Source: Lentzea waywayandensis
GTDB lineage: Bacteria > Actinomycetota > Actinomycetes > Mycobacteriales > Pseudonocardiaceae
DNA length: 64,000 nucleotides
NCBI RefSeq assembly: GCF_900115955.1
Contig: NZ_FOYL01000010.1
Location: 62,001 to 126,000, forward strand
Direction of reading: 5' to 3'
The notes under the pieces were generated by a model. The model was not told where the DNA came from. It saw nothing but the letters and a program-made list of their open reading frames with translations, and did not search any database. The position numbers and the translations under genes were made by a program. How positions within the stretch are numbered: the stretch's first letter is position 1; every line of letters begins with the position of its first letter. Positions 26,776 to 40,901 of the stretch are shown piece after piece.

Positions 26776-26819
26776 CTCCGGTGGCCGGACGTGACCCCGA
26801 CCCCGTCCGGTCACCGGAG
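26776..26819. terminator. 16 bp hairpin between chitinase and EAL gene A
   Basis: Arms 26776-26791 and 26804-26819 pair over 16 positions with a single G-T wobble and a 12 nt loop. It lies between convergent genes and covers the last codons of the EAL gene. Probably a bidirectional terminator. Confidence 0.65.
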
Positions 26820-28925
26820 TTCCAAACCCTCCAGGAACTCACCAGGCTCACGGGCCGCCCCGAAGTGGTCGCCGGTCGCGAAGTCCGCACCGGCGTCACG
26901 CCACCACTGAGCCTGCTCCGCGCCGCCGATCCCGTCGACCACGACCGTCACACCGGCCTGCCGCACCAACGGCAGCAGCGCCGCGACGTACGGAGAGCGG
27001 CGCTCAACCAGATCCCGAGCCACCCGCACCGACTTCACCGGCAGATCGGCCACCACAGCCGGATCCAGCGGCCCCAGGCCGAAGTCGTCGAGCACGATGT
27101 GGACACCCATGCCCGCAAGCGTCGCGAGGTTGTCCGCGGCGTCGGTCAGCGACAGCACCCCGGCGGGCATGCCGATCGCCAGGCCCTCGACCGGCAGACT
27201 CGTCTCCTCCAGCACGCCGACCATGCGGGAGACCAGGTCCGCGTCGGACGACTGGTGCGCGGTGAGACGGACGGCCAGCAGCCGGTCGAACTGGCCACGC
27301 TGCCGCCACCACACAGACTGACCGGCGGCGACGCGGAACAGCCACTCGCCGAGCGGCAGCATCAGCCCGGTCTGCTCGGCCAGGCCCGCGACCCGGTCGT
27401 GCTCCAGCACGCCGGACTCCGGCCGGTCCCAGCGCAGTCCGGCCTCGACGCCGGTGACCACGCCGTCGGCCAGCCGCACGATCGGCCGGTACCGCACGGT
27501 GATCTCGCCGTTCTCCCACGCGCCCGGCATCGTCACGGCCATCGCGTGGTCACGGCGTTCCTCAGCGTCCTGGCCCGTGTGGAAGACCTCCCACTGGCCA
27601 CGCCTGCGCACCTTGGCCCTGCGCAGCGCCGTGTCCGCCGCGCGCAGCAGGTCCACCGGCTCCATGTCGCTCGACGGCCGGTGCACGACCCCGGCGCTCA
27701 CCGACACCGCGAGCCCGTGACCGTCCACATAGGTCGGTTCGTTCAGGTCGTCGTTGATGCTCTTCATGATCGTGCCGATGGACGGCGTGTTCGCGTTGTT
27801 CTCCACGAGGAGCGCGAGCTCGTCGCCGTCGAACCGGGCGATCATGGCCTTCTCGCCGGCCATCAGCACCCGCAGCCGCTGGGCGACGTGCTGGAGCAGC
27901 CGTTCGGCGACCCGGCCGCCGAAGCTGTTGCACACCATGCCGAACGCGTCGAGGTCGAGGTGCAGGACGGTGATGCCGTGCGCGGGATCGGCCCTGCGCA
28001 GCGCGATCTCCAGCTGGGTGGTGAAGAACTGGCGGTTCGGCAGCCCGGTCAGCACGTCGTGCAGCGCCTGCCGCTTGAGCTCGCTCTGCAGCAACGCCAG
28101 TTCGGTGCCGTCCTCGACCACCACGACGAAGTGCATCGGCTTGTTGTCGGCACCGCGCAGCAGCGACGCCGTCAGCGTGACCCGCGCGGACTCGCCGTCC
28201 TTGCGCAGCAACCGTTGCGACTGCCGGACGCGGTCGACGACACCGCCGGCGAGCTCGGTCATCGCCTCCCGCAGCATCTCGGTGAAGGCGGGCTCGATCA
28301 GGTCGAGCAGCGGCGTGCCGGTGAGCTCGTCCGAGGTGAGCCCGAGGATCTGGCCGATGGCCCCGTTCACCTGGCGCAGCCGGCCGTCGAGGTCGACGAT
28401 CAGCACGCCGTTGGTGGACGCGGTGACCACCTCGTTGAACCGGGCCTCGCTCTCCCTGAGGTTCCAGTTCGCGTCGCGGACCGCCTTGAGCAACGAGCGC
28501 TGCATGCTCTCCTGCTGCGCGAGCACCGACTCGGCGTTGGCCGCGGTGAAGCCGGCGCCGAGCGCGCCCATCGCGAGCGCGATCCGTTCCGCGTATCGCT
28601 GCACCGGCTGGAACTCCGGCAGCGCGAGCAGCCCCTTGCCGAGCACCTCGCTCGTGCAGCGCAGCCCGAACTTCCCGAGGTGACCTAGCGTCGCCAAATC
28701 AGCGCCGGCGACCTCGATCGGGGCAGTGACGAACGGTTCTTCGTGCAACATCGAACACAACGCGTCGAGCCGGATGCTCAGTTCCTGGTCGAGATCTTCG
28801 CGTCCCAGCGGAATGGCCACCGCTCCGAGCAGGCGATATGACCATTTGCGGGCAAGAGTCATCCGCGCCCGCGCATTGTCCTGAGGCGAGGGCGTTACAC
28901 CAGGGATTCGACCCGGGTTGGACAT
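26811..28925 (-). CDS. PAS-GGDEF-EAL protein with degenerate sites (module A)
   Basis: A 704-residue cytoplasmic protein. Residues 1-160 are a helical domain I cannot name, 165-285 PAS (NGVLIVDLDGRLRQVNGAIG), about 285-440 GGDEF, and about 460-700 EAL. The GGDEF motif reads DGDEL (366-370), with no RxxD inhibitory site before it. EAL reads EAG; the Asn of the next motif is replaced (RLTAHQSSDADL) and ExTE is gone (AIGMPAG), though DDFG remains. Both enzyme activities for cyclic-di-GMP are therefore probably lost, which suggests a binding or signalling role. The ATG at 28925 was chosen over an Arg/Cys-rich extension. It is paralogous to the gene at 32335 with the same neighbours. Confidence 0.9.
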   Translation of the reverse strand: MSNPGRIPGVTPSPQDNARARMTLARKWSYRLLGAVAIPLGREDLDQELSIRLDALCSMLHEEPFVTAPIEVAGADLATLGHLGKFGLRCTSEVLGKGLLALPEFQPVQRYAERIALAMGALGAGFTAANAESVLAQQESMQRSLLKAVRDANWNLRESEARFNEVVTASTNGVLIVDLDGRLRQVNGAIGQILGLTSDELTGTPLLDLIEPAFTEMLREAMTELAGGVVDRVRQSQRLLRKDGESARVTLTASLLRGADNKPMHFVVVVEDGTELALLQSELKRQALHDVLTGLPNRQFFTTQLEIALRRADPAHGITVLHLDLDAFGMVCNSFGGRVAERLLQHVAQRLRVLMAGEKAMIARFDGDELALLVENNANTPSIGTIMKSINDDLNEPTYVDGHGLAVSVSAGVVHRPSSDMEPVDLLRAADTALRRAKVRRRGQWEVFHTGQDAEERRDHAMAVTMPGAWENGEITVRYRPIVRLADGVVTGVEAGLRWDRPESGVLEHDRVAGLAEQTGLMLPLGEWLFRVAAGQSVWWRQRGQFDRLLAVRLTAHQSSDADLVSRMVGVLEETSLPVEGLAIGMPAGVLSLTDAADNLATLAGMGVHIVLDDFGLGPLDPAVVADLPVKSVRVARDLVERRSPYVAALLPLVRQAGVTVVVDGIGGAEQAQWWRDAGADFATGDHFGAAREPGEFLEGLELR

Positions 28926-28954
28926 TCGGGCAGCCTCGCAAAGGCTCGGAGGTC

Positions 28955-28970
28955 CCGGCAGTTTACCCAC
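28955..28970 (-). promoter_or_regulatory. Conserved upstream element of EAL gene A
   Basis: On the minus strand GTGGGTAAACTGCCGG precedes the start by 29 bp and contains TAAACT, a plausible -10. The identical 16 bases occur before the paralogue at 34450-34465 while flanking bases have changed, so the element is under constraint. Confidence 0.5.
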
Positions 28971-29028
28971 GCACAGTCGCTCACGCCTCAACCGGCCGCG
29001 TGAATCAACTTCACACCATCGATAATCG

Positions 29029-29853
29029 TTATGGCTTCCGTCCGACGCCGGCGAACGCGATCTTGTTCACCGCCGGATCATCCGAGATGTCGCCAGGACC
29101 GGCAGGTCGCCATTCGGCGTACTTGACCAGTCCGGGCTCGACCAGTTCGAAATCACCGAAGAAGCCCTCGATCTCGTCGCGGTCGCGATAGGTGACGGCG
29201 CCGCCGCCCGACTTGCTCATCCTGTCGGTCACGGCCCTGGCCTCGTCGTTGACGTGGTCGCCGGCCATGTGCGAGATCGCCAGGTAGCTCCCGCTGGGCA
29301 GGGCCTCCCGGTAGCGCTTGAGCAGGCTCTGCGGATCGGCCTCGTTCGGCACCCAGTGCACCATGAACAGCATCAGCAGCCCGACCGGCTGGTCCAGGTC
29401 GAGCAGCCGGTTCAGCTCACCGCTGTTCAGGATGCTCTCCGGATCGCGCATGTCGGCCTGCAGCACGCCGACCCGGTCGTTGCCGGCGACGATCAGCTCG
29501 CCGTGCGCGACGGCGACGGGATCGCGGTCCACGTACAGGACGCGGCACTCGGGCGCCTCCTCCTGCGCGACCTCGTGCACGTTGGCCACGGTCGGGATGC
29601 CCGAGCCGATGTCCAGGAACTGGCGCACGCCCTGCTCGGTCATGAACCGCACCGCGCGGCGCAGGAAGGCCCGGTTGAGCCTGGCCGCGCTGCGGGAGTG
29701 CGGCATCATCTGCTCGGCCTTGTCGCCCATCACGCGGTCGACCGCGAAGTTGTGCGCACCCCCGAGCAGGTAGTCGTAGACCCGCGCCGCACTGGGCACG
29801 GAAACATCCACGCTCTGTGGAATCCAGTTCTGCTCGCTGGACACGGGGATCAC
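29029..29853 (-). CDS. SAM-dependent methyltransferase, Methyltransf_19 family (module A)
   Basis: A 274-residue protein of the actinobacterial Methyltransf_19 (DUF574) group. The family start is SARVYDYLLGGAHNFAVDR, motif I is FLDIGSGIPTVANVHEVAQ, and the acidic residue that binds SAM ribose is in VLYVDRDPVAVAHG. ADMRDP and LMLFMVHWVPN follow. The substrate of the family is unknown; many copies occur per genome, often beside regulators. The start is GTG 29853 behind GAAGAGG. It is divergent from the P450 of the same module, and the EAL gene follows 103 bp downstream. It is paralogous to the gene at 34522. Confidence 0.9.
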   Translation of the reverse strand: MIPVSSEQNWIPQSVDVSVPSAARVYDYLLGGAHNFAVDRVMGDKAEQMMPHSRSAARLNRAFLRRAVRFMTEQGVRQFLDIGSGIPTVANVHEVAQEEAPECRVLYVDRDPVAVAHGELIVAGNDRVGVLQADMRDPESILNSGELNRLLDLDQPVGLLMLFMVHWVPNEADPQSLLKRYREALPSGSYLAISHMAGDHVNDEARAVTDRMSKSGGGAVTYRDRDEIEGFFGDFELVEPGLVKYAEWRPAGPGDISDDPAVNKIAFAGVGRKP

Positions 29854-29930
29854 CCTCTTCAGGTTGCGGACGCACTAGCTTAGTCATGCACAAAGCGCAC
29901 TCGACTACGCCGCAAGTGTGAACGCACGCC

Positions 29931-29980
29931 ACCCGATCGGGCACTGTCACTCTGCCCCGAACGACTCATAGGGTGGCCCG
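29931..29980 (+). promoter_or_regulatory. Conserved promoter block of P450 gene A
   Basis: By eye 39 of 50 bases match 35441-35490 before the second P450. Conserved cores are GCACTGTC and TAGGGTGG, which could be -35 and -10 regions 19-21 bp apart. The same intergenic region shares ACGCAC-AGCTTAGTCA (29870-29886 and 35381-35397) on the methyltransferase side. Confidence 0.5.
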
Positions 29981-30008
29981 ATCTCTTTCCGCCTCGCGAG
30001 GAGCGAAG

Positions 30009-31322
30009 ATGTCCGTCCCGGTGGCACCCGGCAGGCTGCCATTTCTCGGGCATTCGTTGCCTATGCTCAGGAAAAGATTCGCATTCACCGGGAATCTGCG
30101 AGGTCAGGGTGATCTCGTCGAAGTCCACTTAGGGCCGATGCGGACCTATTTCGTCGCCAGCCCGAAGTTGACGCATCAGGTGCTCGTCACCGACGCGCCG
30201 AAGTTCCACAAAGGCCGGATGTACGACAAGTTCCGCCCGTTCGTCGGCAACGGCCTGGCATTGTCGAACGGGGCTTTCCACCTGCGCCAGCGCCGGATGA
30301 TGCAGCCGGCGTTCCACCGCGACCGGATCGCGGGCTACGCGGAGATCATGTCCCGCGCGGCGCTCGACCTGCTGGACGGCTGGCGGCCCGGCGAGGTGCG
30401 GCAGCTGGAGGCCGACATGCAGGGCCTCGCCGTCACGATCGTCGGCGAGTCGCTGTTCTCCACCGAGATCGGTGAGAAGGCGATCGACGAGGCCCGCCGG
30501 TCGGTCTTCGTGATCATCAAGAACGGCATCCTGCGCGCGCTCTCGCCGGGGTTCGTCGAGAAGCTGCCCATTCCGGCCAACCGCGAGTTCGACGAGGCCA
30601 TCGCCCGGATGCGCGCCATCGTGCACGAGGTCATCGAGAGCCGGCGCGACGATGACACCGACCACGGCGACCTGCTGACGATGCTGCTGGCCGCCAGGGA
30701 TCCCGAGACCGGCGAACCGATGACCGACGAGCAGGTCTTCGACGAGGTCGTCACGCTGCTGACCGCGGGGATCGAGACCACCGCGCTGGCACTGGCCTGG
30801 ATCTTCCACGAGATCGCCGCCAACCCCGAGGTGGAGCAACGGGTTCAGGCGGAGATCGACGACGTGCTGGCCGGGCGTCAGGTGACGATCGACGACGTGC
30901 CGAAGCTGACGTACCTCGGCCAGGTGGCGAACGAGGTCCTGCGCAAGTACCCGCTCTGGCTCGTCATGCGCCGCACGGCCGAGGAGGTCGAGCTCGGCGG
31001 CGCCGTCCTGGCACCGGGCACCGAGGTGATCCTCAGCCCGTACACGATGCACCACGACCCCGCGCACTTCCCGGACCCCGAGCGCTTCGACCCGGACCGC
31101 TGGACGCCCGAACGCGCCGCGCTGCTGCCGAAGGGCGCGTACGTCCCGTTCGGCGGCGGCGTCCACCAGTGCATCGGAAACCACTTCGCGCTGACCGAGA
31201 TCGCCATCGTGGTGGCGACGGTCTGCTCGCGTTACCGGCTGGTCCCCGACCGGCCCGTGCGCACCAAGTTCACCAATGCGGCCTACCCCAACGACCTGAT
31301 GATGAAGGTCGTCCCCCGCTAG
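30009..31322 (+). CDS. Cytochrome P450 (module A)
   Basis: A 437-residue soluble P450. The I-helix oxygen motif is LTAGIETTALAL (AGxET), the ExxR motif is NEVLRKYP, and the haem loop is FGGGVHQCIG with the Cys ligand near residue 388. The N-terminal PGRLPFLGH resembles class-II-like and CYP102-type sequences more than the common short actinobacterial class, so the substrate may be a fatty acid or lipid. No ferredoxin gene is adjacent; electrons must come from elsewhere. The ATG at 30009 follows GAGGAG. The hydrolase gene starts 17 bp later, probably cotranscribed. It is paralogous to the gene at 35523. Confidence 0.93.
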   Translation: MSVPVAPGRLPFLGHSLPMLRKRFAFTGNLRGQGDLVEVHLGPMRTYFVASPKLTHQVLVTDAPKFHKGRMYDKFRPFVGNGLALSNGAFHLRQRRMMQPAFHRDRIAGYAEIMSRAALDLLDGWRPGEVRQLEADMQGLAVTIVGESLFSTEIGEKAIDEARRSVFVIIKNGILRALSPGFVEKLPIPANREFDEAIARMRAIVHEVIESRRDDDTDHGDLLTMLLAARDPETGEPMTDEQVFDEVVTLLTAGIETTALALAWIFHEIAANPEVEQRVQAEIDDVLAGRQVTIDDVPKLTYLGQVANEVLRKYPLWLVMRRTAEEVELGGAVLAPGTEVILSPYTMHHDPAHFPDPERFDPDRWTPERAALLPKGAYVPFGGGVHQCIGNHFALTEIAIVVATVCSRYRLVPDRPVRTKFTNAAYPNDLMMKVVPR

Positions 31323-31339
31323 CTGGAGGTTGTTCCCCC

Positions 31340-32338
31340 ATGCGTTTCCGTCGGCTCTGTGCCGCCGTGCTGCTCGCCGCGTTCATACCGGTACCCACGC
31401 AGGCGAGCGCCGCGCAGACCAGTTGTGAGGACGTGTACACGCCCGTTCAGTTCGGGCTCATCCGGCAGACGATGTACGGCAGGCTGTGCGTCCCGCAGGG
31501 GGCCACGACGGTCCAGGTGCTCATCCCCGGCGGCACGTACACCGGCGGGTACTGGGACATCCCGGTGGAAGGCGAGACCCGCTCGGTCACGCGGGCGATG
31601 AACGGCGCGGGCGTCGCGACCATGGTCGTGGACCGGATCGGCTCCGGGAAGAGCACCAAGCCGCTCAGCATCCTGGTCGACGTCCCGAACCAGGCCGAGG
31701 CGGTGCACCAGGTCATTCAGAACCTGCGTCCGCGGTTCTCCAAGGTGCTGGTCGGCGGGCACTCGATCGGCTCGGCCATCGCGATGGCGGAGGCGGGCAG
31801 GTACCGCGACGTGGACGGCGTCCTGGTCACCGGCATGACGCACCAGTGGGACTACATCAGGGCCGTGCCCGCGCTGACCAACCTGATCCCCGCGCCGCTC
31901 GACGCGAAGCTGAGCCTGCGCGGTCTCGACGTCGGCTACCTGACCACGGTGCCGGGAAGCCGCTACACCATGTTCCACGCGCCGGGCCCGAACGTGCCCG
32001 CGGTCGTGGACCTCGACGAGGCCACGAAGGACGTCGTCTCGGCGGGTGAGTTCGTCACCACCGCCCTGATGTCGAACCTCGTGCTGCCCGTGAGCGCCCT
32101 CATCGACGTGCCGGTGATGACCGTCCAGACCTCGGCCGACTACTTCTGCGGCACCCCGCCGCTCGGCGCCGACTGCTCGTCGTCGGACGCGCTGGTCAGG
32201 TCCGAGAGGCCGTTCTACCCCAGGGCACCGCGGCTGGACGGCTTCGTAGTCAACGGGTACGGGCACGTCTTCAACTTCGACACGAACGCCGCCGCGCGCT
32301 ACCACGACGCCGTAGTCGCCTGGCAGCGCACGATCTAG
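31340..32338 (+). CDS. Secreted alpha/beta hydrolase (module A)
   Basis: A 332-residue exported hydrolase. The signal peptide is MRFRRLCAAVLLAAFIPVPT, cleaved near ASA. The nucleophile elbow is GGHSIGSA, and the catalytic His is probably in VNGYGHVFNFD near the C-terminus. VQVLIPGGTYTGGYWD forms the early strands. Cysteines near both ends (TSCEDV, RLCVP, FCGTPP, DCSSS) suggest disulphides. It should act outside the cell on an ester or lipid. The ATG at 31340 follows GGAGG. Its stop overlaps that of the convergent EAL gene of module B by 4 nt. It is paralogous to the gene at 36852. Confidence 0.88.
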   Translation: MRFRRLCAAVLLAAFIPVPTQASAAQTSCEDVYTPVQFGLIRQTMYGRLCVPQGATTVQVLIPGGTYTGGYWDIPVEGETRSVTRAMNGAGVATMVVDRIGSGKSTKPLSILVDVPNQAEAVHQVIQNLRPRFSKVLVGGHSIGSAIAMAEAGRYRDVDGVLVTGMTHQWDYIRAVPALTNLIPAPLDAKLSLRGLDVGYLTTVPGSRYTMFHAPGPNVPAVVDLDEATKDVVSAGEFVTTALMSNLVLPVSALIDVPVMTVQTSADYFCGTPPLGADCSSSDALVRSERPFYPRAPRLDGFVVNGYGHVFNFDTNAAARYHDAVVAWQRTI

Positions 32339-34419
32339 ACCAAGTTCTGCAGGAACTCTCCCGCGTCGAGCGGGGAACCGAGGTGGGCGCCGATCGCGAG
32401 GTCGGCGCCCATTTCCGTCCACCACTTGGCCTGCTCGGCGGTCTCGATGCCGTCGACGCAGAGGGTGATGCCGAGTTCGCGCACGGCCGGGACCAGTGCG
32501 GCGGAACGAGGATCCTGCCGCCGCGCCAGGTCGTGCGGCACGAGCACGGACACCACCGGCAGTTCCGAGAGCCAGGCGAGGTCGCGCGGCCCGAGCCCGA
32601 AGTCGGCGAGCGCGATCCGCACTCCCATGTCCGCGAGCGTGCTCAGGCTGTCCGCCGCGTCGGCCACGCCCAGCACGCCGACCGGCATGCTCAGCGTCAG
32701 CCTGCCGCGCGGCATCCCGGTCTCCTCCAGCACCTTCGCCACCCGTGACACCAGGTCCGCGTCGGTCGACTGGTGGTGCGTGAGCCGCACGCCGAACTGC
32801 TGGTCGAGCTCGCCGCGCTGGCGCCACCACTGCGCCTGGCCGGCCGCGATCCTGATCAGCCACTCGCCCATCGGCAGGATGAGCCCGCTCTCGTCCGCGA
32901 GTGCGGCGCAGCGGTCGGACAGATCCCAGTGCAGCAACGCCTCGACGCCTGCCAGGTCGCCGGTCGCCAGCTCGCGCACGGGCCGGTAGACCACGCCGAT
33001 GTCGCCCTGTTCCCACGCTCCCGGCATCACCACGGCCAGCGCGGCGTCCCGCCGTCCGTCGGCGTCCTCGCTGGTGTGGAACAACTCCCACTGCCCGCGG
33101 CGGTCGCGCTTGGCCTGCCGCAACGCCAGATCGGCCGTGCGCAGCAGTTCCACCGGGTCGACGTCGGACAACGGCCGGTGCACCACGCCCGCGCTCACCG
33201 ACACCGCGAGGCCGTGACCGTCCACATAGGTCGGTTCGCCCAGTTCGGCGTTGATGGTCGCCATCGTGGTCGCGATGTCCGGGGTCAGGGCGGTGTTCTC
33301 CACGACGATGCCGAACTCGTCGCCGTCGAACCGCGCGATCATGGTCTGCTCGTGCGACATCACGGTCCGCAGCCTGCGCGCGACGTGCTGGAGCAGGTGT
33401 TCGCCGACCCGAGCGCCGAGGCTGTTGCACACCAGGCCGAACGCGTCGAGGTCGAGGTGGAAGATGGTCACGCCGAACTCGGGGTCGGCCCTGCGCAGCA
33501 CGGTTTCCAGGTGGGTGGTGAAGAACTGCCGGTTCGGCAGTCCCGTCAGCACGTCGTGCAGCGACTGGCGGCGCAGTTCTCCTTGCAGCAGCGCCAGTTC
33601 CGTGTCGTCGTCCGCCATCACGAGGACGTGACTGGGCTTGCCCTCGTCGTCCCGCAGCAGCGACGCCGTGAGCGTCACCTTGGCGAACTCGCCGTCGCCG
33701 CGCAGGAGTTGCATCGGTTCCCGCTCGAACTCGTCGCGTTCGGAGAGGACCCGTTCCATCATCTCGCGGAACACGACGATCGACGTCGGCGCGATGAGCT
33801 CGACGAGCCGGGTGCCCGGCTCCGGCGGACGTCCGATGATCACGGCGATCGACTCGTTGCCCCACGCGAGGCGCCCGTCGAGGCCGACGATCAGGACGCC
33901 GTTGGTGGACGAGGTCGCGATGCCCTCGAACTTCGCCTCGCTCTGGCGCTGATCCCGTTGCGCGTCATGGGCGGCCTTGAGCAGCGAACGCTGCATGCTC
34001 TCCTGCTGGTCCAGGATCGAACGCGCCCGCGCCGTGGTGAAGCCGCACGTCAGCGCACCGATGCCGCCGACGACGCGGACGGTGTGCTGGTCGCTCGCGC
34101 TGAACTCCTCCAGCGCCAGCAAGCCTTTGCCGAGGACGTCGACGGTGCGCTTGAGGCCGGGTTCGTTCACGTAGCCGAGAGCGACGAGCCGTTCGCCCAT
34201 CTCCTCGAACGGAGCAGGGTCGAACGGTTCGCTGTGCAGCGCCGCGCACAATGCGTCGAGCTGGGCGCCCAGTTCGGCGTCCAGCTCATCCCTGCTCAGC
34301 GCGACTACGACGACGCTGCTGAGCAGGTAGCTCCACTTGCGCGACAAGGCTTCTCGCGCTCGGACGGCGGCGGTGTCCGAAGGTGGAGCGGCATCGGGTC
34401 TTCGGCTTGGATTCGTCAT
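32335..34419 (-). CDS. PAS-GGDEF-EAL protein with degenerate sites (module B)
   Basis: A 694-residue paralogue of the protein at 26811 with the same layout: N-terminal helical domain, PAS (NGVLIVGLDGRLAWGNESI), GGDEF and EAL. GGDEF reads DGDEF. EAL itself is intact (GVEALLHW), but the Asn motif is RLTHHQSTDADL, ExTE is lost, and the double Asp is ADFG. So this copy has decayed at different positions from copy A and is also unlikely to cleave cyclic-di-GMP. The ATG at 34419 matches the MSNP/MTNP start of copy A. Its promoter element is conserved. It is read toward the hydrolase of module A and overlaps its stop by 4 nt. Confidence 0.9.
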   Translation of the reverse strand: MTNPSRRPDAAPPSDTAAVRAREALSRKWSYLLSSVVVVALSRDELDAELGAQLDALCAALHSEPFDPAPFEEMGERLVALGYVNEPGLKRTVDVLGKGLLALEEFSASDQHTVRVVGGIGALTCGFTTARARSILDQQESMQRSLLKAAHDAQRDQRQSEAKFEGIATSSTNGVLIVGLDGRLAWGNESIAVIIGRPPEPGTRLVELIAPTSIVVFREMMERVLSERDEFEREPMQLLRGDGEFAKVTLTASLLRDDEGKPSHVLVMADDDTELALLQGELRRQSLHDVLTGLPNRQFFTTHLETVLRRADPEFGVTIFHLDLDAFGLVCNSLGARVGEHLLQHVARRLRTVMSHEQTMIARFDGDEFGIVVENTALTPDIATTMATINAELGEPTYVDGHGLAVSVSAGVVHRPLSDVDPVELLRTADLALRQAKRDRRGQWELFHTSEDADGRRDAALAVVMPGAWEQGDIGVVYRPVRELATGDLAGVEALLHWDLSDRCAALADESGLILPMGEWLIRIAAGQAQWWRQRGELDQQFGVRLTHHQSTDADLVSRVAKVLEETGMPRGRLTLSMPVGVLGVADAADSLSTLADMGVRIALADFGLGPRDLAWLSELPVVSVLVPHDLARRQDPRSAALVPAVRELGITLCVDGIETAEQAKWWTEMGADLAIGAHLGSPLDAGEFLQNLV

Positions 34420-34449
34420 TCCCGTTGCCCTGTATGGGTTGGAGAGTGT

Positions 34450-34465
34450 CCGGCAGTTTACCCAC
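34450..34465 (-). promoter_or_regulatory. Conserved upstream element of EAL gene B
   Basis: GTGGGTAAACTGCCGG on the minus strand, 16 of 16 identical to the element before EAL gene A and at nearly the same distance (30 bp) from the start codon. Confidence 0.5.
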
Positions 34466-34521
34466 CGGCAGTCGACGCCCACTGCGCCAACCGTGTGATC
34501 CTCCGACACTACAGCGTGGTT

Positions 34522-35349
34522 TCAGTCCTTACGACCGACCCCAGCGTACAAGAACATGTTCATGGACGCCTCGTCGGCGAAATCCCCAGGTCCGAACGGG
34601 CGCCACTCCCCGCAGCCGACCAAACCGGGCTCCACCAGGGAAAACCCCTCGAACAACGCGCTGACCTGCGCGTGCGTGCGCATGTGCATCTGGTCTGCGC
34701 TCTTGCTGCGGTTCACCACGGCGGCGGCCTGGTCGACGTTGTCGTCGATCTGGTCCCTCGCCACGTGCGTCATCGCCAGGAAACTGCCAGCGGGCAGCGC
34801 GTCGCGGTAGCGGGCGACGAGCTTCTCCGGGCCGTCCTCGTCGGGCACCCAGTGCATCATGAGCAGCATCAACAGGCCGACCGGTTCGTCGCGGCGCAGC
34901 AACCGCCTCACCTCGGGACTCGACAGCACGGCGTCCGGGTCGCGCATGTCGGCATTCACCACGGCGGCGTTCCTGTTGTCAGCCAACATCAATTCGCTGT
35001 GCGCGACGGCGATGGGGTCCTTGTCGACGTAGACGACGCGCGCGGCCGGGTCGCGTTCCTGCGCGACCTCGTGCACGTTCGCGACGGTCGGGATGCCGGA
35101 ACCGATGTCGAGGAACTGGCGAATCCCCTGATCCATCATGAAGTTCACGGCACGGCCGAGGAATCTTCGGTTGACTCTGGCGACGTGGCGCAGCCCTGGC
35201 ACCAGGGTCTCGATCTGGGAACCGACCTGCCGGTCCGCGGCGAAGTTGTGGGCGCCGCCGAGGATGTAGTCGTAGACGCGGGCCATGCTCGGGACGTTCG
35301 TGTCGATGCCGAGCGGTACCCAGTTCTGGGTTTCTGCCACGGGGAACAC
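34522..35349 (-). CDS. SAM-dependent methyltransferase, Methyltransf_19 family (module B)
   Basis: A 275-residue paralogue of the methyltransferase at 29029. Family motifs are ARVYDYILGGAHNFAADR, FLDIGSGIPTVANVHEVAQ, VVYVDKDPIAVAHSE and LMLLMMHWVPDEDG. GTG 35349 was chosen to match the start of the copy A protein (MIPVSSEQNW against MFPVAETQNW). It is divergent from the second P450, and the EAL B gene follows 102 bp downstream. The substrate is unknown. Confidence 0.9.
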   Translation of the reverse strand: MFPVAETQNWVPLGIDTNVPSMARVYDYILGGAHNFAADRQVGSQIETLVPGLRHVARVNRRFLGRAVNFMMDQGIRQFLDIGSGIPTVANVHEVAQERDPAARVVYVDKDPIAVAHSELMLADNRNAAVVNADMRDPDAVLSSPEVRRLLRRDEPVGLLMLLMMHWVPDEDGPEKLVARYRDALPAGSFLAMTHVARDQIDDNVDQAAAVVNRSKSADQMHMRTHAQVSALFEGFSLVEPGLVGCGEWRPFGPGDFADEASMNMFLYAGVGRKD

Positions 35350-35440
35350 CTCTTCGGTCTTACGTGGCGGTTCGGGGATGACGCACGAGCTTAGTCACCC
35401 GAGCGGCGTGCGCACTGAACCATCAGAGTGATGGCGAACC

Positions 35441-35490
35441 ACCCGTTCAGGCACTGTCGTCTTCCCCCAAACGGCTCCTAGGGTGGTCCG
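35441..35490 (+). promoter_or_regulatory. Conserved promoter block of P450 gene B
   Basis: The counterpart of 29931-29980, with the same GCACTGTC and TAGGGTGG cores and 32 bp before the P450 start. Conservation in a non-coding spacer while third codon positions have drifted argues for function. Confidence 0.5.
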
Positions 35491-35522
35491 TCCCCATTCG
35501 GCCCAACTCCTCAGGAGTCCGA

Positions 35523-36833
35523 GTGCCCGTCCCGGTGGCTCCTCGCCGCTGGCCGCTGCTCGGGCACACCCCGTCGATGCTCGCCCACCGCGCCAAGTTC
35601 ACCGACGCGTTGCGCGAACACGGCGACGTGGTGCGCCTGGACCTCGGCCCGCTGCACGCGCACTTCGTCACGAGTCCTTCGCTGACTCACGAAGTGCTTG
35701 TGTCGCAAGGATCGAAGTTCCGCAAGGGCGCCATGTTCGACAAGTTCCAGCCGTATCTCGGGACGGGGCTGCTGCTGTCGAACGGCGAGTACCACCTGCG
35801 CCAACGCCGGATGATGCAGCCGGCCTTCCATCGGGAACGGATTGAAGCCTATGCCTCGACGATGGCTCGTGCTGCTTCTTCGCTGGCTGCGCGCTGGCAA
35901 CCAGGCGAGATCCGCACGATCGAGAACGACATGCAGGAGCTCGCGGTCACCATCGTCGGCGAGACGCTCTTCTCGACGGAGATCGGCAAGCGCGCGGTCG
36001 CGGAGGTCCGCAGGTCCATCTTCACGGTCATCCAGCAAGGCATGATCCGCGCGCTGTCCCCCACGTTCGTCGAGAAACTCCCGCTGCCGGGCAACAAGGA
36101 GTTCGACGCGGCCATCGCCCGCATGAAAGCCGTTGTGCTGCAAGTGATCGAGAGCTGGCGCGCCGACGGCACCGACAACGGCGACGTCCTCTCCATGCTG
36201 CTGCTGGCCGAGGAAGACGGCACCCGCATGACCGACCAGCAGACCTACGACGAGGTCCTGACCCTGCTCACCGCGGGCATCGAGACCACGGCGATCGCAC
36301 TGGCCTGGGCGCTGTACGAGGTGGGCGACGACCCGGAGATCGAACGCCGCCTGCACGAGGAGGTCGACTCCGTCGTGGGCGACCGCCCGGTGACGTTCGC
36401 CGACGTGCCGTCCTTGACCTACACCGCCCGGATCGGGCAGGAGACGCTGCGGAAGTACCCGATCTGGTTCGTGATGCGCCGGACGCTCACCGAGGTACAG
36501 CTCGGCGACGTCTCCCTGCCCGCGGGCGCCGAGGTGATCGTCAGCCCGCACGCCCTGCACCACGACGAACGCTACTTCCCTTCACCGGAACGCTTCTGGC
36601 CCGACCGCTGGACCCCGGAGTTCTCCGCCGCCTTACCGCGCGGCGCGTTCATCCCGTTCGGCGGCGGCAACCGCCAGTGCCTCGGCAACACGTTCGCCCA
36701 GACCGAGATCGTCATCACCCTCGCGACCATCGCGGCACGCTGGCGCCTGGTCCCCACCCGTCCGGCGCGCGTGAAGTTCACGTCCGCGCCGTACCCGAAC
36801 GGCCTGCTCATGAAGGCCGTCCCCCGCAACTAG
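35523..36833 (+). CDS. Cytochrome P450 (module B)
   Basis: A 436-residue paralogue of the P450 at 30009. The I-helix is LTAGIETTAIAL, ExxR is QETLRKYP, and the haem loop is FGGGNRQCLG with the Cys near residue 386. GTG 35523 gives the same start as copy A (MPVPVAPRRWPLLGH against MSVPVAPGRLPFLGH). The hydrolase gene follows after 18 bp. Substitutions in the substrate-recognition regions between copies leave open whether the two oxidise the same compound. Confidence 0.93.
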   Translation: MPVPVAPRRWPLLGHTPSMLAHRAKFTDALREHGDVVRLDLGPLHAHFVTSPSLTHEVLVSQGSKFRKGAMFDKFQPYLGTGLLLSNGEYHLRQRRMMQPAFHRERIEAYASTMARAASSLAARWQPGEIRTIENDMQELAVTIVGETLFSTEIGKRAVAEVRRSIFTVIQQGMIRALSPTFVEKLPLPGNKEFDAAIARMKAVVLQVIESWRADGTDNGDVLSMLLLAEEDGTRMTDQQTYDEVLTLLTAGIETTAIALAWALYEVGDDPEIERRLHEEVDSVVGDRPVTFADVPSLTYTARIGQETLRKYPIWFVMRRTLTEVQLGDVSLPAGAEVIVSPHALHHDERYFPSPERFWPDRWTPEFSAALPRGAFIPFGGGNRQCLGNTFAQTEIVITLATIAARWRLVPTRPARVKFTSAPYPNGLLMKAVPRN

Positions 36834-36851
36834 CCGGAAGGTATTTCTCCC

Positions 36852-37841
36852 ATGCGTTTCCGCAGGCTCATCGCCGCGGCTCTGCTCGCCACCGGAACCC
36901 TGTTAGCCCCGCTCCCGGCCTCCGCGGCCACGTCCTGCCAGGACGTCGCCTACCCCGTGCGAATCGGCCTCACCCCACTGGTGACCTCGCAGGAGACCAT
37001 GGCGGGCAGGCTCTGCGTCCCCTCGGGCGCGTCCACCGTGCAGGTCCTGATCCCAGGCGGCACCTACGACCGGACCTACTGGGACGTCGGCTTCGAACCG
37101 TCGACCCACTCGTTCACGCAGTCCCAGAACAACGCGGGCTTCGCCACCCTCGCACTCGACCGCCTGGGCACCGGCAAGAGCACAAAACCTCTCAGCGCCT
37201 TCGTGACGGCCTCAACCCAGGCCAGCGCGGTCCACCAGGTCATCTCCACCCTGAAACCCCGCTTCACCAAGGTGATCGTCGCCGGCCACTCCATCGGCTC
37301 GGCGATGGCGATGATCGAGGCAGGCACGAACCGCGACGTGGACGGCGTCCTGGTCACCGGCTTCACGCACAAGATGAACTACATCACCGTCGTCCCGGTA
37401 CTCGCCAACATGATCCCGGCGAGCCTGGACCTCGGCTACCTCACCACGATGCCGGACACCCGCTACAACTCGTTCCACAAACCGGGCCCACTGATCCCGG
37501 GCGCGATCTCGTTCGACGAGACCACCAAGGACGTCTTCGCCGTAACAGAGGCCGTGGACACCATCCTGCTCAACACGGTGATCATCCCGATCTCGCGCCA
37601 GATCAACGTCCCAGTCCTCATCGTCGTGGGCAACGACACCCACTTCTGCAGCTCCGGCCTCCCCCTGATGGGCAGCGACTGCTCCTCCCCTGCAGCTTTG
37701 AAGGCCGACGAGCTGCCGTTCTTCCCAGCAGCCCCCCGCCTGGACACCTACGTCCTCAACGGCTACGGCCACTCCATCAACTACGCCCCGAACGCCCCCG
37801 ACTACCACGCCGCCGTAGCCCAGTGGTCCGAGGGCATCTAG
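36852..37841 (+). CDS. Secreted alpha/beta hydrolase (module B)
   Basis: A 329-residue paralogue of the hydrolase at 31340. The signal peptide is MRFRRLIAAALLATGTLLAP, cleaved near ASA. The nucleophile elbow is AGHSIGSA and the probable catalytic His is in LNGYGHSINYA. It has the same Cys pattern (TSCQDV, RLCVP, HFCSSG, DCSSP). A small insert sits near residue 40 and a gap near residue 195 relative to copy A. It is cotranscribed with P450 B. The alkyltransferase-like gene follows after 13 bp. Confidence 0.88.
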   Translation: MRFRRLIAAALLATGTLLAPLPASAATSCQDVAYPVRIGLTPLVTSQETMAGRLCVPSGASTVQVLIPGGTYDRTYWDVGFEPSTHSFTQSQNNAGFATLALDRLGTGKSTKPLSAFVTASTQASAVHQVISTLKPRFTKVIVAGHSIGSAMAMIEAGTNRDVDGVLVTGFTHKMNYITVVPVLANMIPASLDLGYLTTMPDTRYNSFHKPGPLIPGAISFDETTKDVFAVTEAVDTILLNTVIIPISRQINVPVLIVVGNDTHFCSSGLPLMGSDCSSPAALKADELPFFPAAPRLDTYVLNGYGHSINYAPNAPDYHAAVAQWSEGI

Positions 37842-37854
37842 CTAGAATCACGGC

Positions 37855-38178
37855 ATGGACGAAGAGATCCACGAGCGAGTCCGCGAGTTCATCAAGGCGA
37901 TCCCGCGCGGACGAGTCGCCACGTACGGCGACATCGCAGATCTCGCAAAGGCGCCGTCGCCACGGCTGGTAGGCCGAATCCTCAACGAGGACGGCCACGA
38001 CCTGCCGTGGCAACGCGTGCTCAAGGCCGACGGCACCTGCGCCGCGCACCTCCGCGACACGCAACTCCAGATGCTGCACGAGGAGGGCGTCCCGAACCTC
38101 GACGGCAAGGTGAACCTGCGGGAGTACCGCTGGGAGGACGCCCGCAAGGAGGAGCCCGAGGTACCGGGCCTCTGGTAG
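37855..38178 (+). CDS. Alkyltransferase-like (ATL) DNA repair protein
   Basis: A 107-residue member of the O6-alkylguanine transferase DNA-binding family. The helix-turn-helix part is IPRGRVATYGDIADLA, followed by RLVGRILNEDGHDLPWQRVLKADG. Active transferases have PCHRV at the last motif; here it is PWQRV, with Trp in place of the acceptor Cys. Such ATL proteins bind O6-alkylguanine without removing it and direct the lesion to nucleotide excision repair. It is the counterpart of M. tuberculosis Rv3204, which also lies near adnA and moeZ. It follows the module B hydrolase closely and may share its transcript. Confidence 0.9.
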   Translation: MDEEIHERVREFIKAIPRGRVATYGDIADLAKAPSPRLVGRILNEDGHDLPWQRVLKADGTCAAHLRDTQLQMLHEEGVPNLDGKVNLREYRWEDARKEEPEVPGLW

Positions 38179-38321
38179 AGCTGTCGGCAGGCCCGCGCCG
38201 CGAGAGCGGAGGCTGCGCCAGCAACGGGCAGGGTGGCGAGGGGCGAGGCGGACGCGGGATCGGGCCGCTGCGAGGCCGGGCCGGAGTAGAGCGGAGTAAG
38301 GCGACCGTCCGCACTCCGAGG

Positions 38322-38752
38322 CACCGCCCTCGCAAGCCAGCCGCCGCAAGGCCCAAGGGACCACCCTCGCAAGGCGACGCCCGCACGGCAGGCGCCCCTC
38401 CGCTGGAACACAACGAACGCCCGCAAGCCGACCCCCACGGCCGAGCCCGCCAACGCAAAACGACCCGCGCGGTGCCACCAGGCGCCCGCCCTCGCAAAGC
38501 AACCACGTACGAGGCCTGGCGTGGCGATGCGAAGCGAGCCGTGTGAACCGATGCCGCCCGGGATGCGGTGCACCCCGCTCATGGCGATTGGGGCTTTACC
38601 TTGAGGGGGCGGGATGCCACCCTCGTGGGCTCGGCCGGGGCTCTGTGAACCCCGGCTTGTGAGGCCGACTACGCATCCCGCCAGAGGCTCAAGGTCAAGC
38701 CCCAATCGCAACCCCGCACTTCGTCACGACCCGCGCGCCCACCCTCGCAAGG
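38322..38752. repeat. Dispersed CACCCTCGCAAGG phrase, five copies
   Basis: Copies or close variants start near 38322, 38362, 38487, 38617 and 38740. Two match CCACCCTCGCAAGG exactly (38361-38374 and 38739-38752); the one inside the structured element reads CCACCCTCGTGGG. They are irregularly spaced, unlike CRISPR. Their role is unknown. Confidence 0.55.
38584..38709. repeat. Long structured inverted repeat (possible REP/MITE-like element or ncRNA)
   Basis: The outer arms 38584-38605 and 38688-38709 match at 21 of 22 bases when one is reverse-complemented. After a small asymmetric bulge, 38608-38617 and 38673-38682 pair perfectly (10 bp). Inside is a perfect hairpin GCCGGGG-9 nt-CCCCGGC (38634-38656). 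The whole would fold as a 126 nt rod. No open frame accounts for it. The outer ends resemble the terminal repeats of a small mobile element; the nested helices equally suit a structured RNA or a double terminator. Confidence 0.6.
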
Positions 38753-38863
38753 TGACTGAACGCCAGGAACGCGACCAACCAGCACAAGCCGACCCCAGCG
38801 AAACTCAATCCCTGTCAAACCACCCAGTGGAACAGTTCCATTGAGGCCGATCAGCACCAGCCC

Positions 38864-39505
38864 TCATGCTGTACGCAGCAACCCGGCCCGACCCTCGTAG
38901 TACTTGCGCAACAACGCATCGACCACAAGAGGATGCGCCCCGACCGGTTCGGAGACCACGTCCGCACCGCACTCGGCGAGCGACCCGTGGAATGCCCCTG
39001 GTGCCAGGAGCCACGAGGCAACGGCCACGCGGCGCCCCCGCAGCCCGGCAACGACGTCGGGCACGCGGGGCGTCGCGGTCGCCACGTACCCAACCGCAGA
39101 AGCCCCGATCAACGCTGCGGCAGCACGAACGGTCGCCAGTGCCCGCGAATCAGACGATCCCGCCGCGGCGAGCACTACTGCGTCGCCGCGGCGGACACCT
39201 GCCTCCCGCAACCGATCGCGCACGGCCGGCACCGCGTCCAGCCCCAACGGCGACGTCAGCACCACCCCGGGACGACGCCCGATCTGCGCGGGAATGTCCA
39301 CACGAACGTGATACCCAGCAGCCAGGAACACCGGCACCACCACACACGGACCGTCCACAACAGACCGAACATCGGGCTGCACGACGTCCGCGTAAGCAAC
39401 CTCCACCGGAACGTCCACCGACGAACGCACCAACGAAGCGATCTCCGAGCAAACCGCAATCCCACGCGGATCACGAGTCCCATGAAACGCCAGTACAAGT
39501 TTCAC
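38864..39505 (-). CDS. Sirohydrochlorin chelatase-like protein (CbiX/SirB family)
   Basis: A 213-residue CbiX/SirB-type chelatase. The first metal-site His is in LAFHGTRDPRG near the N-terminus and the second in AAGYHVRVDIP. The second half repeats the fold in shorter form (DAVVLAAAGSSDSRA). Such enzymes insert Fe2+ into sirohydrochlorin to make sirohaem. GTG 39505 overlaps the nnaR stop at GTGA. As the last gene of the nirB-nirD-nnaR unit it would supply sirohaem to NirB. A cobalt chelatase role is possible from sequence alone, but the context favours iron. Confidence 0.88.
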   Translation of the reverse strand: MKLVLAFHGTRDPRGIAVCSEIASLVRSSVDVPVEVAYADVVQPDVRSVVDGPCVVVPVFLAAGYHVRVDIPAQIGRRPGVVLTSPLGLDAVPAVRDRLREAGVRRGDAVVLAAAGSSDSRALATVRAAAALIGASAVGYVATATPRVPDVVAGLRGRRVAVASWLLAPGAFHGSLAECGADVVSEPVGAHPLVVDALLRKYYEGRAGLLRTA

Positions 39506-40593
39506 GCGGGCTCCATCGCAAGCCGGTAACCACGTTTCACCACAGTGCACACCATCTGAGGCGACCCCAAGGCGGTCCGCAACCGCCCGATCGCCGTCTC
39601 GACCGCGTGCTCCTCGCCACCAGAAGGCAGAGCAGCCAACAGGTCCTGCCGAGAGACCACCCGCCCACGAGCGGCGACCAGGGTCCGCAACACGGCCATC
39701 GGCGCCGGAGCAACAGGTCGAAGCTCCCCGTCGATCACCACGGCCTGAGCACGCATCTCCATGTCCAGAGAGGCAATCCGCAACCGCAACGCCCGCGATG
39801 GCAACTCCAGAGCCAACTCCCGGACCATGGACCCGATCCGGGACCGAGCAGGCTGCACGACAGGAATCCCGGCGGCCACCAACGGCCCGGCGGTGATCGC
39901 ACCGACGCCGACAACCAGAACATCCCGACGCAACACGGAAACCAGAGCACCGAAGTCCGGCGCGGTCCGCAGAACGGAAGAAGCCGCGGGCGCCGAGGTG
40001 AACGTCAAAGCGTCCACCTGCCCCGCCACCACAGCCTCGATCAACCGCTGTAACGGCCCCAGATCAGCCGGCGGCTCCCACCGATAGACAGGAATCTCGA
40101 CAACCTCAGCCCCAGCGGCAGCCAGAGTGTTCACAAAATCCGGCAACGGCTCGCCGTGCAACTGAACGGCGACCCGCTTACCGGACACGCCCATCCGCAA
40201 CAGGTACTGCAGAAGCTCCGCGTTCGACTCAGAAGAAGGCGACCAGGCCTCGACCAGCCCCGCCGCCCGAACCGCCCCCTTGGCCTTGGGCCCACGCGGC
40301 AACACGACCGCACCTTCCAAGGCACGGTGCAACCGCCCGGCCAGCCCCCACCCCTCCGCAGCCTCGAACCACCCGCGGAACCCGATCGCCGTAGTAGCCA
40401 CAACAACATCAACAGGTGACGCCACCAGCTCCAACGTCGCGGCGTGCAGAGTCGCGTCGTCGGGCAACGGCACGATCCTCAAAGCGGGACCGTGCAACAC
40501 CGAGGCGCCCTTGCGTTCCAGCATGGCGATGAGCTCGTCGGCGCGACGGGCCGCCGTGACGCCGATGGTGAAGCCCGCCAGAGGCCCTGTCAT
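39502..40593 (-). CDS. nnaR: NnaR: HemD-like domain plus DNA-binding domain
   Basis: A 363-residue two-domain protein. Residues 1-255 resemble uroporphyrinogen-III synthase (GFTIGVTAARRADELIAML; ALTFTSAPAASSVL). Residues about 270-363 form an OmpR-type winged helix (PMAVLRTLVAARGRVVSRQDLLAAL, VETAIGRLRTALG and TVVKRGYRL). This architecture is that of NnaR, which works with GlnR to activate nitrate and nitrite assimilation genes in Streptomyces and Mycobacterium. The HemD part probably senses rather than catalyses. The ATG at 40593 overlaps nirD at ATGA. It probably controls this very cluster. Confidence 0.88.
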   Translation of the reverse strand: MTGPLAGFTIGVTAARRADELIAMLERKGASVLHGPALRIVPLPDDATLHAATLELVASPVDVVVATTAIGFRGWFEAAEGWGLAGRLHRALEGAVVLPRGPKAKGAVRAAGLVEAWSPSSESNAELLQYLLRMGVSGKRVAVQLHGEPLPDFVNTLAAAGAEVVEIPVYRWEPPADLGPLQRLIEAVVAGQVDALTFTSAPAASSVLRTAPDFGALVSVLRRDVLVVGVGAITAGPLVAAGIPVVQPARSRIGSMVRELALELPSRALRLRIASLDMEMRAQAVVIDGELRPVAPAPMAVLRTLVAARGRVVSRQDLLAALPSGGEEHAVETAIGRLRTALGSPQMVCTVVKRGYRLAMEPA

Positions 40594-40901
40594 GTCAGCT
40601 CCACAACACCGTCGCGCACCCGCACACCATGCACGGCAACGGAAACGGAAGGCTGCTCCAGGCACTTGCCGGTCGCCAGCTCGAACGCCTGCTTGTAGAC
40701 CGGCGACACGACAACGGGAACGCCGCCCCGGTCGCCCACGATTCCGCGCGACAACACGGCGGCGCCGCTGAACGGGTCGATGTTGTCCAGCGCGTGCACC
40801 GTGCCGTCCGCGGTCAGGAAGACCGCCACCTGCGAGCCGTCCGGCAGCAGCGCCGCGACGCCCTGCTCGGGCCGTAACACGTCGAAGTCACAGACGATCA
40901 C
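40590..40901 (-). CDS. nirD: Nitrite reductase small subunit NirD
   Basis: A 103-residue Rieske-fold protein: VAVFLTADGTVHALDNIDPFSGAAVLSRGIVG, then VVSPVYKQAFELATGKCLEQP. The Rieske Cys/His ligands are absent, as is normal for NirD, so it binds no cluster. It pairs with NirB for NADH-dependent reduction of nitrite to ammonium in the cytoplasm. GTG 40901 overlaps the nirB stop by 4 nt. Confidence 0.93.
   Translation of the reverse strand: MIVCDFDVLRPEQGVAALLPDGSQVAVFLTADGTVHALDNIDPFSGAAVLSRGIVGDRGGVPVVVSPVYKQAFELATGKCLEQPSVSVAVHGVRVRDGVVELT

Follow-up and report, generated by a model that had tools for sequence, protein, structure and literature searches.

In the making of the drug streptonigrin by Streptomyces, a methyl ester is put on and later taken off, a course of events that Xu et al., in a title of 2013, reportedly call 'cryptic carboxyl methylation'. 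Here we describe a locus in which a comparable cycle may be packed into a compact gene cassette. The locus lies in a 64,000-nucleotide stretch of the genome of Lentzea waywayandensis (contig NZ_FOYL01000010.1, positions 62,001 to 126,000 of the forward strand), hereafter the window, whose own numbering is used throughout. It consists of two tandem blocks of four genes encoding a PAS-GGDEF-EAL protein (D), a Methyltransf_19 S-adenosylmethionine (SAM) methyltransferase (M), a cytochrome P450 (P) and a secreted alpha/beta hydrolase (H), with M divergent from P and H. We read each block as a self-contained tailoring cassette in which a methyl ester would act as a temporary cap, an explanation to which we give somewhat less than even confidence. 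It is the most likely one because H belongs to the StnA family and has an intact catalytic triad, and because the predicted fold of M is near that of leucine carboxyl methyltransferases.

According to the StnA paper (PMC5225493), the streptonigrin enzyme StnA cleaves the methyl ester of 10'-demethoxystreptonigrin by means of a Ser185-Asp308-His349 triad, has a pocket that accommodates a small flat molecule, was assigned to a new subfamily by its authors and works within a cluster of 48 genes responsible for making the complete drug. H aligns with StnA over nearly its full length and has the same triad, whereas no scaffold pathway was found next to the cassette. In the aurantinin pathway, as set out in PMC8302727, a carboxyl methyl ester is a protecting group that is removed last by a membrane-located esterase, the ester form being inactive. 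Art28 and Art9 follow there the same temporary capping logic with other enzyme families, the substrate of Art28 being a malonyl carrier protein and Art9 being similar to BioH (PMC8302727). In the cassette, by contrast, M is a DUF574 protein, H resembles StnA and the set includes a P450. Methyl-ester capping is already known from antibiotic pathways such as that of aurantinin; here both capping roles and an oxygenase appear packed in a compact cassette across an antibiotic-producing family that includes Amycolatopsis and Saccharothrix. A further parallel comes from the methylation of protein phosphatase 2A, in which the methyltransferase LCMT-1/PPM1 is partnered by the alpha/beta hydrolase esterase PME-1, much as M is by H. 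In predicted fold M resembles LCMT-1/PPM1, but no sequence match links them; M also falls short of PPM1 by about 50 residues, and H appears to be a secreted protein. The capping explanation offers a testable role for Methyltransf_19, and the presence of two diverged copies in one genome allows their substrates to be compared.

Composition, conservation and history of the cassette

Copy A comprises D at 26811..28925 (minus strand; reading frame open to 28991), M at 29029..29853 (minus), P at 30009..31322 (plus; open from 29973) and H at 31340..32338 (plus). Copy B follows with D at 32335..34419 (minus; open to 34509), M at 34522..35349 (minus), P at 35523..36833 (plus) and H at 36852..37841 (plus). 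Pfam assigns PAS-GGDEF-EAL, Methyltransf_19, p450 and alpha/beta hydrolase to both blocks. Likely starts were taken from aligned relatives for D of copy A (28925, MSNPGR..) and copy B (34419, MTNPSR..), P of copy A (30009, MSVPVAP..) and H of copy A (31340, MRFRRL..); with these starts the gaps in copies A and B are 103 and 102 bp between M and D, 155 and 173 bp between M and P, and 17 and 18 bp between P and H, so that the two copies agree closely. Identities between the copies amount to 411/711 (58%) for D, 158/272 (58%) for M, 265/435 (61%) for P and 186/321 (58%) for H. A preliminary description of this DNA had proposed a tandem duplication of four genes in the same order and on the same strands, with matching starts and gaps and signal peptides on both hydrolases, and all of this is borne out here, the signal peptides being Sec-type as judged by eye. 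The genome of 10.15 Mb holds exactly two matches to H and only two close matches to P (61-100% identity, the next best at 31%), so the pairing of A with B is not due to chance; matches to Methyltransf_19 number 12. The cassette genes are under purifying constraint with respect to Lentzea relatives, dN/dS ranging from 0.12 to 0.38 across 30 gene-by-relative comparisons (four relatives, both D genes being left out for L092).

The spread of the cassette was traced in 80 stretches taken from H matches, in which all four families were mapped; because these stretches were picked mostly by score, weaker H relatives are under-sampled. H occurs in all 24 Lentzea genomes, and both tandem copies of it in 21 of them (hand count). 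At an E value of 1e-30 or better it was found in 134 of 297 genomes of the family and in 26 of 46 genera, and at 1e-25 in 10 of 394 genomes drawn from the class, one being the source genome itself and nine belonging to other families. The Lentzea tandem loci contain 48 H genes, 47 of them with P, M and D arranged in the standard way and one lacking P. Elsewhere we mapped 58 H genes at 57 loci, five of these loci holding second H genes of Lentzea genomes (29-44% identical). Of the 58 genes, 34 lie with P, M and D, 19 with P and M, three have M nearby and no P directly upstream, and two have neither. The association is therefore conserved beyond the source strain, as the preliminary description had asked to be checked. 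Seen from the side of P, 21 of the best 26 matches (at least 495 bits, among 80 family genomes) have H directly downstream by hand comparison; three of the other five lie in one genome (G029), within some kilobases of an H, and the remaining two (G049, G086) are without a listed H in their vicinity. Outside the family (12 loci in nine genomes), M adjoins H in one locus (L252), and a P450 occurs in one locus only, 28% identical and about 8 kb off.

The core layout was found in at least 11 genera, Lentzea, Saccharothrix, Umezawaea, Kibdelosporangium, Amycolatopsis, Actinokineospora, Kutzneria, Crossiella, Allokutzneria, Actinophytocola and Actinosynnema (genus assignment draws partly on a listing of 21 of the 69 named loci), and Longimycelium has an irregular version. 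Given these counts inside and outside the family, M, P and H form the core, D often accompanies them, and the cassette belongs essentially to the Pseudonocardiaceae. The suggestion that the four genes act as a unit stands insofar as a unit has been retained; a strict unit of four does not, since D is missing in 19 of the 53 P-M-H cassettes outside the Lentzea tandem and D of copy B is kept in two Lentzea genomes where the other three genes of that copy were not found. Searches of titles and abstract openings found no description of the cassette in the literature, which is weak evidence of absence because subscription papers were thinly covered. Loci L173, L185 and L209, in records that go under the names Nocardia sp. 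NRRL S-836 and Rhodococcus rhodnii NRRL B-16535, carry Lentzea- and Kibdelosporangium-type cassettes, and these record names are probably wrong. An Allokutzneria locus has two cassettes with their H genes face to face (L145:3984-13133), and another locus has an extra P450 directly after H (L133:10752-12035).

When 2418 open frames around the cassettes of 57 loci (L101-L157) were clustered, no conserved fifth gene emerged and no cluster extended over more than 14 loci. Three candidates were rejected: an ABC-transporter ATPase family recognised by Pfam, at varying distances from the cassette; a cluster of opposite-strand frames that does not behave as a member; and a DUF6596 sigma factor, which occurs in nine of 81 loci on either side and either strand and is absent from the window and the Lentzea tandem loci. 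The DUF6596-type factor lies 1.4-3 kb from the cassette at L106, L117-L120, L128, L129, L143 and L147, by chance or through a loose link.

The spacer between M and P carries a conserved element. In copy A the sequence CCACCCGATCGGGCACTGTC (29929..29948, plus strand) is followed by CCGAACG at 29957-29963 and TAGGGT at 29969-29974, and in copy B CCACCCGTTCAGGCACTGTC (35439..35458, plus strand) is followed by CCAAACGG at 35467-35474 and TAGGGT at 35479-35484. The M-P spacers of 98 cassettes have in common the pattern CCACCCGATCGGG.ACTGTC; 24 bp further along lies a second site resembling CCGAACGG, and a box similar to TAGGGT is also shared. A position weight matrix scores above 6 in 89 of the 98 spacers, and the 10-mer CACCCGATCG, with up to two mismatches, is present in 97 of them, whereas shuffled versions of the 53 non-tandem spacers had it in 10 of 53, the 10-mers having been chosen as the best among the window's own spacers versus approximate dinucleotide shuffles. 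Exact matches in the whole genome are confined to the two cassettes, which leads us to reject a wider regulon; with up to three mismatches there are 52 sites versus 22 for a reversed control, so that weak further sites are possible. The strict two-site pattern has three matches in the genome, none of them at the cassettes, because neither copy has both sites in strict form. Since the element is common to both spacers and its exact matches are limited to them, both copies are probably under one dedicated control, the element being read as part of a putative promoter.

Gene trees of 77 to 92 rows, with 17 of the 24 Lentzea tandem loci included, provide a history of the duplication. Twelve long or remote names were left out for the M, P and H trees (9, 9 and 10 rows dropped, respectively). 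Copy A and copy B each form a clade in the trees of H, M and P; in the tree of D, copy B is a clade and copy A becomes one once G020 is set aside. The two copies join in one clade in D (support 99) and, with the long rows left out, in H (support 96), the first H tree having placed the remote row L125 inside this clade. For M and P, A and B stay apart in the free trees; the joined tree was better than the free tree for M (p-AU 0.596), and for P it was 10 log units worse, yet not rejected (p-AU 0.339). The single-copy genome G020 falls within A or next to it in the trees of H, M and P, and next to A and B together in that of D, where forcing it to A was not rejected either (p 0.252). Since the joined copies were found in D and H and not rejected in M and P, a single event that doubled the entire block in the Lentzea stem would fit all four families. 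Different duplication dates, the outcome that the preliminary description had held to be damaging, are not strictly excluded by these trees; they were not shown, and a single date was rejected in none of the families.

Later changes are also visible. Three genomes (G001, G003, G021) have a further A-type copy, and in this middle copy P is truncated in G001 and absent in G021, M and H staying in place (L083:10581-10826, L090:9124-11138). In G004 and G013, D of copy B was found at 87-89% identity (L098:5328-7496, L099:11813-13981) and its partners M, P and H from that copy were not; because D has been kept there, it probably has work apart from its own block.

Predicted roles of the proteins and competing explanations

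The profile of H finds the two StnA structures with E values of about 1e-80, all other structures being above 4e-5, and positions 3-328 of the model align with residues 34-368 of 5hdf (E 1.2e-80), a near full-length match that includes the cap region. The Ser-Asp-His columns are intact in 106 of 106 H rows, their equivalence to StnA being judged by eye on the alignment, and four cysteine columns are each kept in 105. With StnA-family membership, the conserved triad and the signal peptide taken together, both H proteins are best read as secreted methyl esterases.

M of copies A and B matches Methyltransf_19 (PF04672) at 297 and 301.8 bits (curated cut-off 26). No paper found by family name addresses the function of this family in its title, and the two matching solved structures are both titled uncharacterised. 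The nearest neighbours of the predicted M fold are two uncharacterised relatives, followed by the leucine carboxyl methyltransferases. We file M under Methyltransf_19 and not under these enzymes because its profile finds only DUF574 structures at significant E values.

P has the features of a cytochrome P450: the heme cysteine is kept in 102 of 102 rows (a few of which adjoin a cassette without being in one), ExxR in 101, the exception being a truncated copy, and the acid-threonine pair of the I helix is present. The nearest named models are the NCBIfam entries for albaflavenone monooxygenase and pentalenene oxygenase, with 380.5 and 338.1 bits for copy A and 347.6 and 335.2 bits for copy B, and the nearest PDB match is 3dbg (E 9.3e-84), which we take to be CYP170A1, the albaflavenone synthase. 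These named P450s oxidise sesquiterpenes. Since the scores fall far under the cut-offs of 700 and 800 bits, a sesquiterpene-like substrate class for P is only a hint, and no terpene synthase was found among ten flanking window frames scanned.

If each block is a capping cassette, M would methylate a carboxylic acid inside the cell to give a neutral methyl ester, P would oxidise the capped molecule, the oxidised product would leave by general transport, and secreted H would then cleave the same methyl ester to yield the free acid outside the cell. D would be an accessory protein that probably acts on M, and the tandem copies would handle related but different substrates. This retains an earlier proposal that a lipid or small molecule is oxidised and then processed outside the cell. 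That no scaffold pathway was found next to the cassette suggests a common metabolite, or an acid made elsewhere in the genome, as the molecule to be capped.

Several observations weigh against such capping. The sequence profile of M (A2) found no carboxyl methyltransferase in the PDB, so the link of M to carboxyl groups comes from predicted fold alone, and one LCMT-1 entry scores 16.5 against that fold, level with unrelated enzymes. Clustering of the nearby frames found neither a scaffold-building gene nor an exporter travelling with the cassette. The secretion of H is a reading of its sequence. H relatives outside the family mostly lack M (present in one of 12 loci), and H therefore does not need M.

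Some of the same facts would suit scavenging or detoxification, a doubtful though by no means negligible alternative in which H would split esters outside, the acid would enter, P would oxidise it and M would block or modify the product, M and H acting on different groups. A hydrolase with a signal peptide, placed behind P in one unit, is what such a route would use, no biosynthetic gene was found travelling with the cassette, and the nearest named P450s act on terpenes. However, H groups with a biosynthetic methyl esterase and not with lipases or general esterases, and M, whose predicted fold is related to carboxyl methyltransferases, stays close to H also in loci that have no P immediately upstream of it (L103, L155, L157, L090).

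The place of D in the cassette bears on the switch proposed in the preliminary description, which would have D respond to c-di-GMP or to a redox signal and govern the enzymes of the cassette. D lies directly behind M in 81 of 100 P-M-H cassettes, and its predicted helical N-terminal bundle is followed by a well-modelled PAS fold, which took up the matches in a fold search with the N-terminal part. Both copies continue with degenerate GGDEF and EAL domains. The canonical residues of these domains comprise metal and guanine-binding residues and the signature in GGDEF and nine catalytic and binding residues in EAL. Among 91 D rows from these loci (a few adjoining a cassette in another orientation), 0-5 of the nine EAL and 2-4 of the six GGDEF residues are kept; the guanine-binding asparagine occurs in two rows and its partner aspartate in 18, the EAL lysine and glutamine in none and the EAL asparagine in one, and the I-site aspartate is lost in all 91. 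As a yardstick, four of ten paralogues from the same genome keep 9/9 EAL and 5-6/6 GGDEF residues, three are degenerate (L011, L013, L014), and three (L015, L017, L020) align badly, were taken as wrong-frame and carry no information. With at most four of six and five of nine residues in any row, D was rejected as an active diguanylate cyclase and as an active EAL phosphodiesterase or EAL c-di-GMP receptor. The label 'degenerate' was right, and is stronger than first claimed.

Three further pairs of Methyltransf_19 and PAS-GGDEF-EAL genes, the two genes of each pair on the same strand, lie elsewhere in the genome, without a P450 or hydrolase of these families (L242, G000:C22:801422-804391; L243, C14:354862-357598; L244, C26:207587-210129), and the D protein of the C22 pair retains all canonical GGDEF and EAL residues. 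To judge from these pairs, D is an old partner of the Methyltransf_19 family whose c-di-GMP chemistry appears to have been lost in the cassette. Because D has lost most c-di-GMP residues and is missing from more than a third of the non-tandem cassettes, control by c-di-GMP is unlikely and the nucleotide-responsive part of the proposal is not supported; the PAS domain may still sense some other ligand.

A slim chance attaches to a bolder version of the capping explanation, in which the product would be a signal in the form of a small methyl ester, derived perhaps from a terpenoid or fatty acid. Insects make juvenile hormone with an acid methyltransferase that forms a methyl ester, the P450 CYP15 and a secreted juvenile hormone esterase, three roles matched by M, P and H. 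The organisms are unrelated, however, and the likeness is one of roles, which gives no evidence for a common substrate or for signalling. If the bacterial parallel held, the secreted esterase would set the duration or form of the extracellular signal, each of the two to three tandem copies in Lentzea would serve as a channel of its own for a particular molecule, and readout would run through the dedicated promoter element and D, a pseudo-enzyme now tied to a ligand other than c-di-GMP.

Very improbable is a reversible carboxyl methylation of a protein or peptide in the manner of LCMT-1 and PME-1, with P unrelated in chemistry. The nearest characterised folds of M and the methyl esterase family of H would agree with it, but a hydrolase with a signal peptide and four conserved cysteines would not meet a cytosolic protein, the pocket described for StnA (PMC5225493) fits a small flat molecule, and P lies directly beside H in 100 of 106 units. 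That the genes have no joint function and are neighbours by chance in related genomes is scarcely credible, even though D-M pairs occur without P and H in the source genome, since the same core layout recurs in so many named genera without a conserved wider neighbourhood and the spacer element is conserved.

Other features of the window

Beyond the cassettes, the block at 38001-40000 has an AT skew of 0.40, the highest among 32 blocks of 2 kb, and a weak coding signal. At 39502-40665, HemD (uroporphyrinogen-III synthase) is fused to a transcriptional regulator domain and adjoins a nitrite/sulphite reductase gene.

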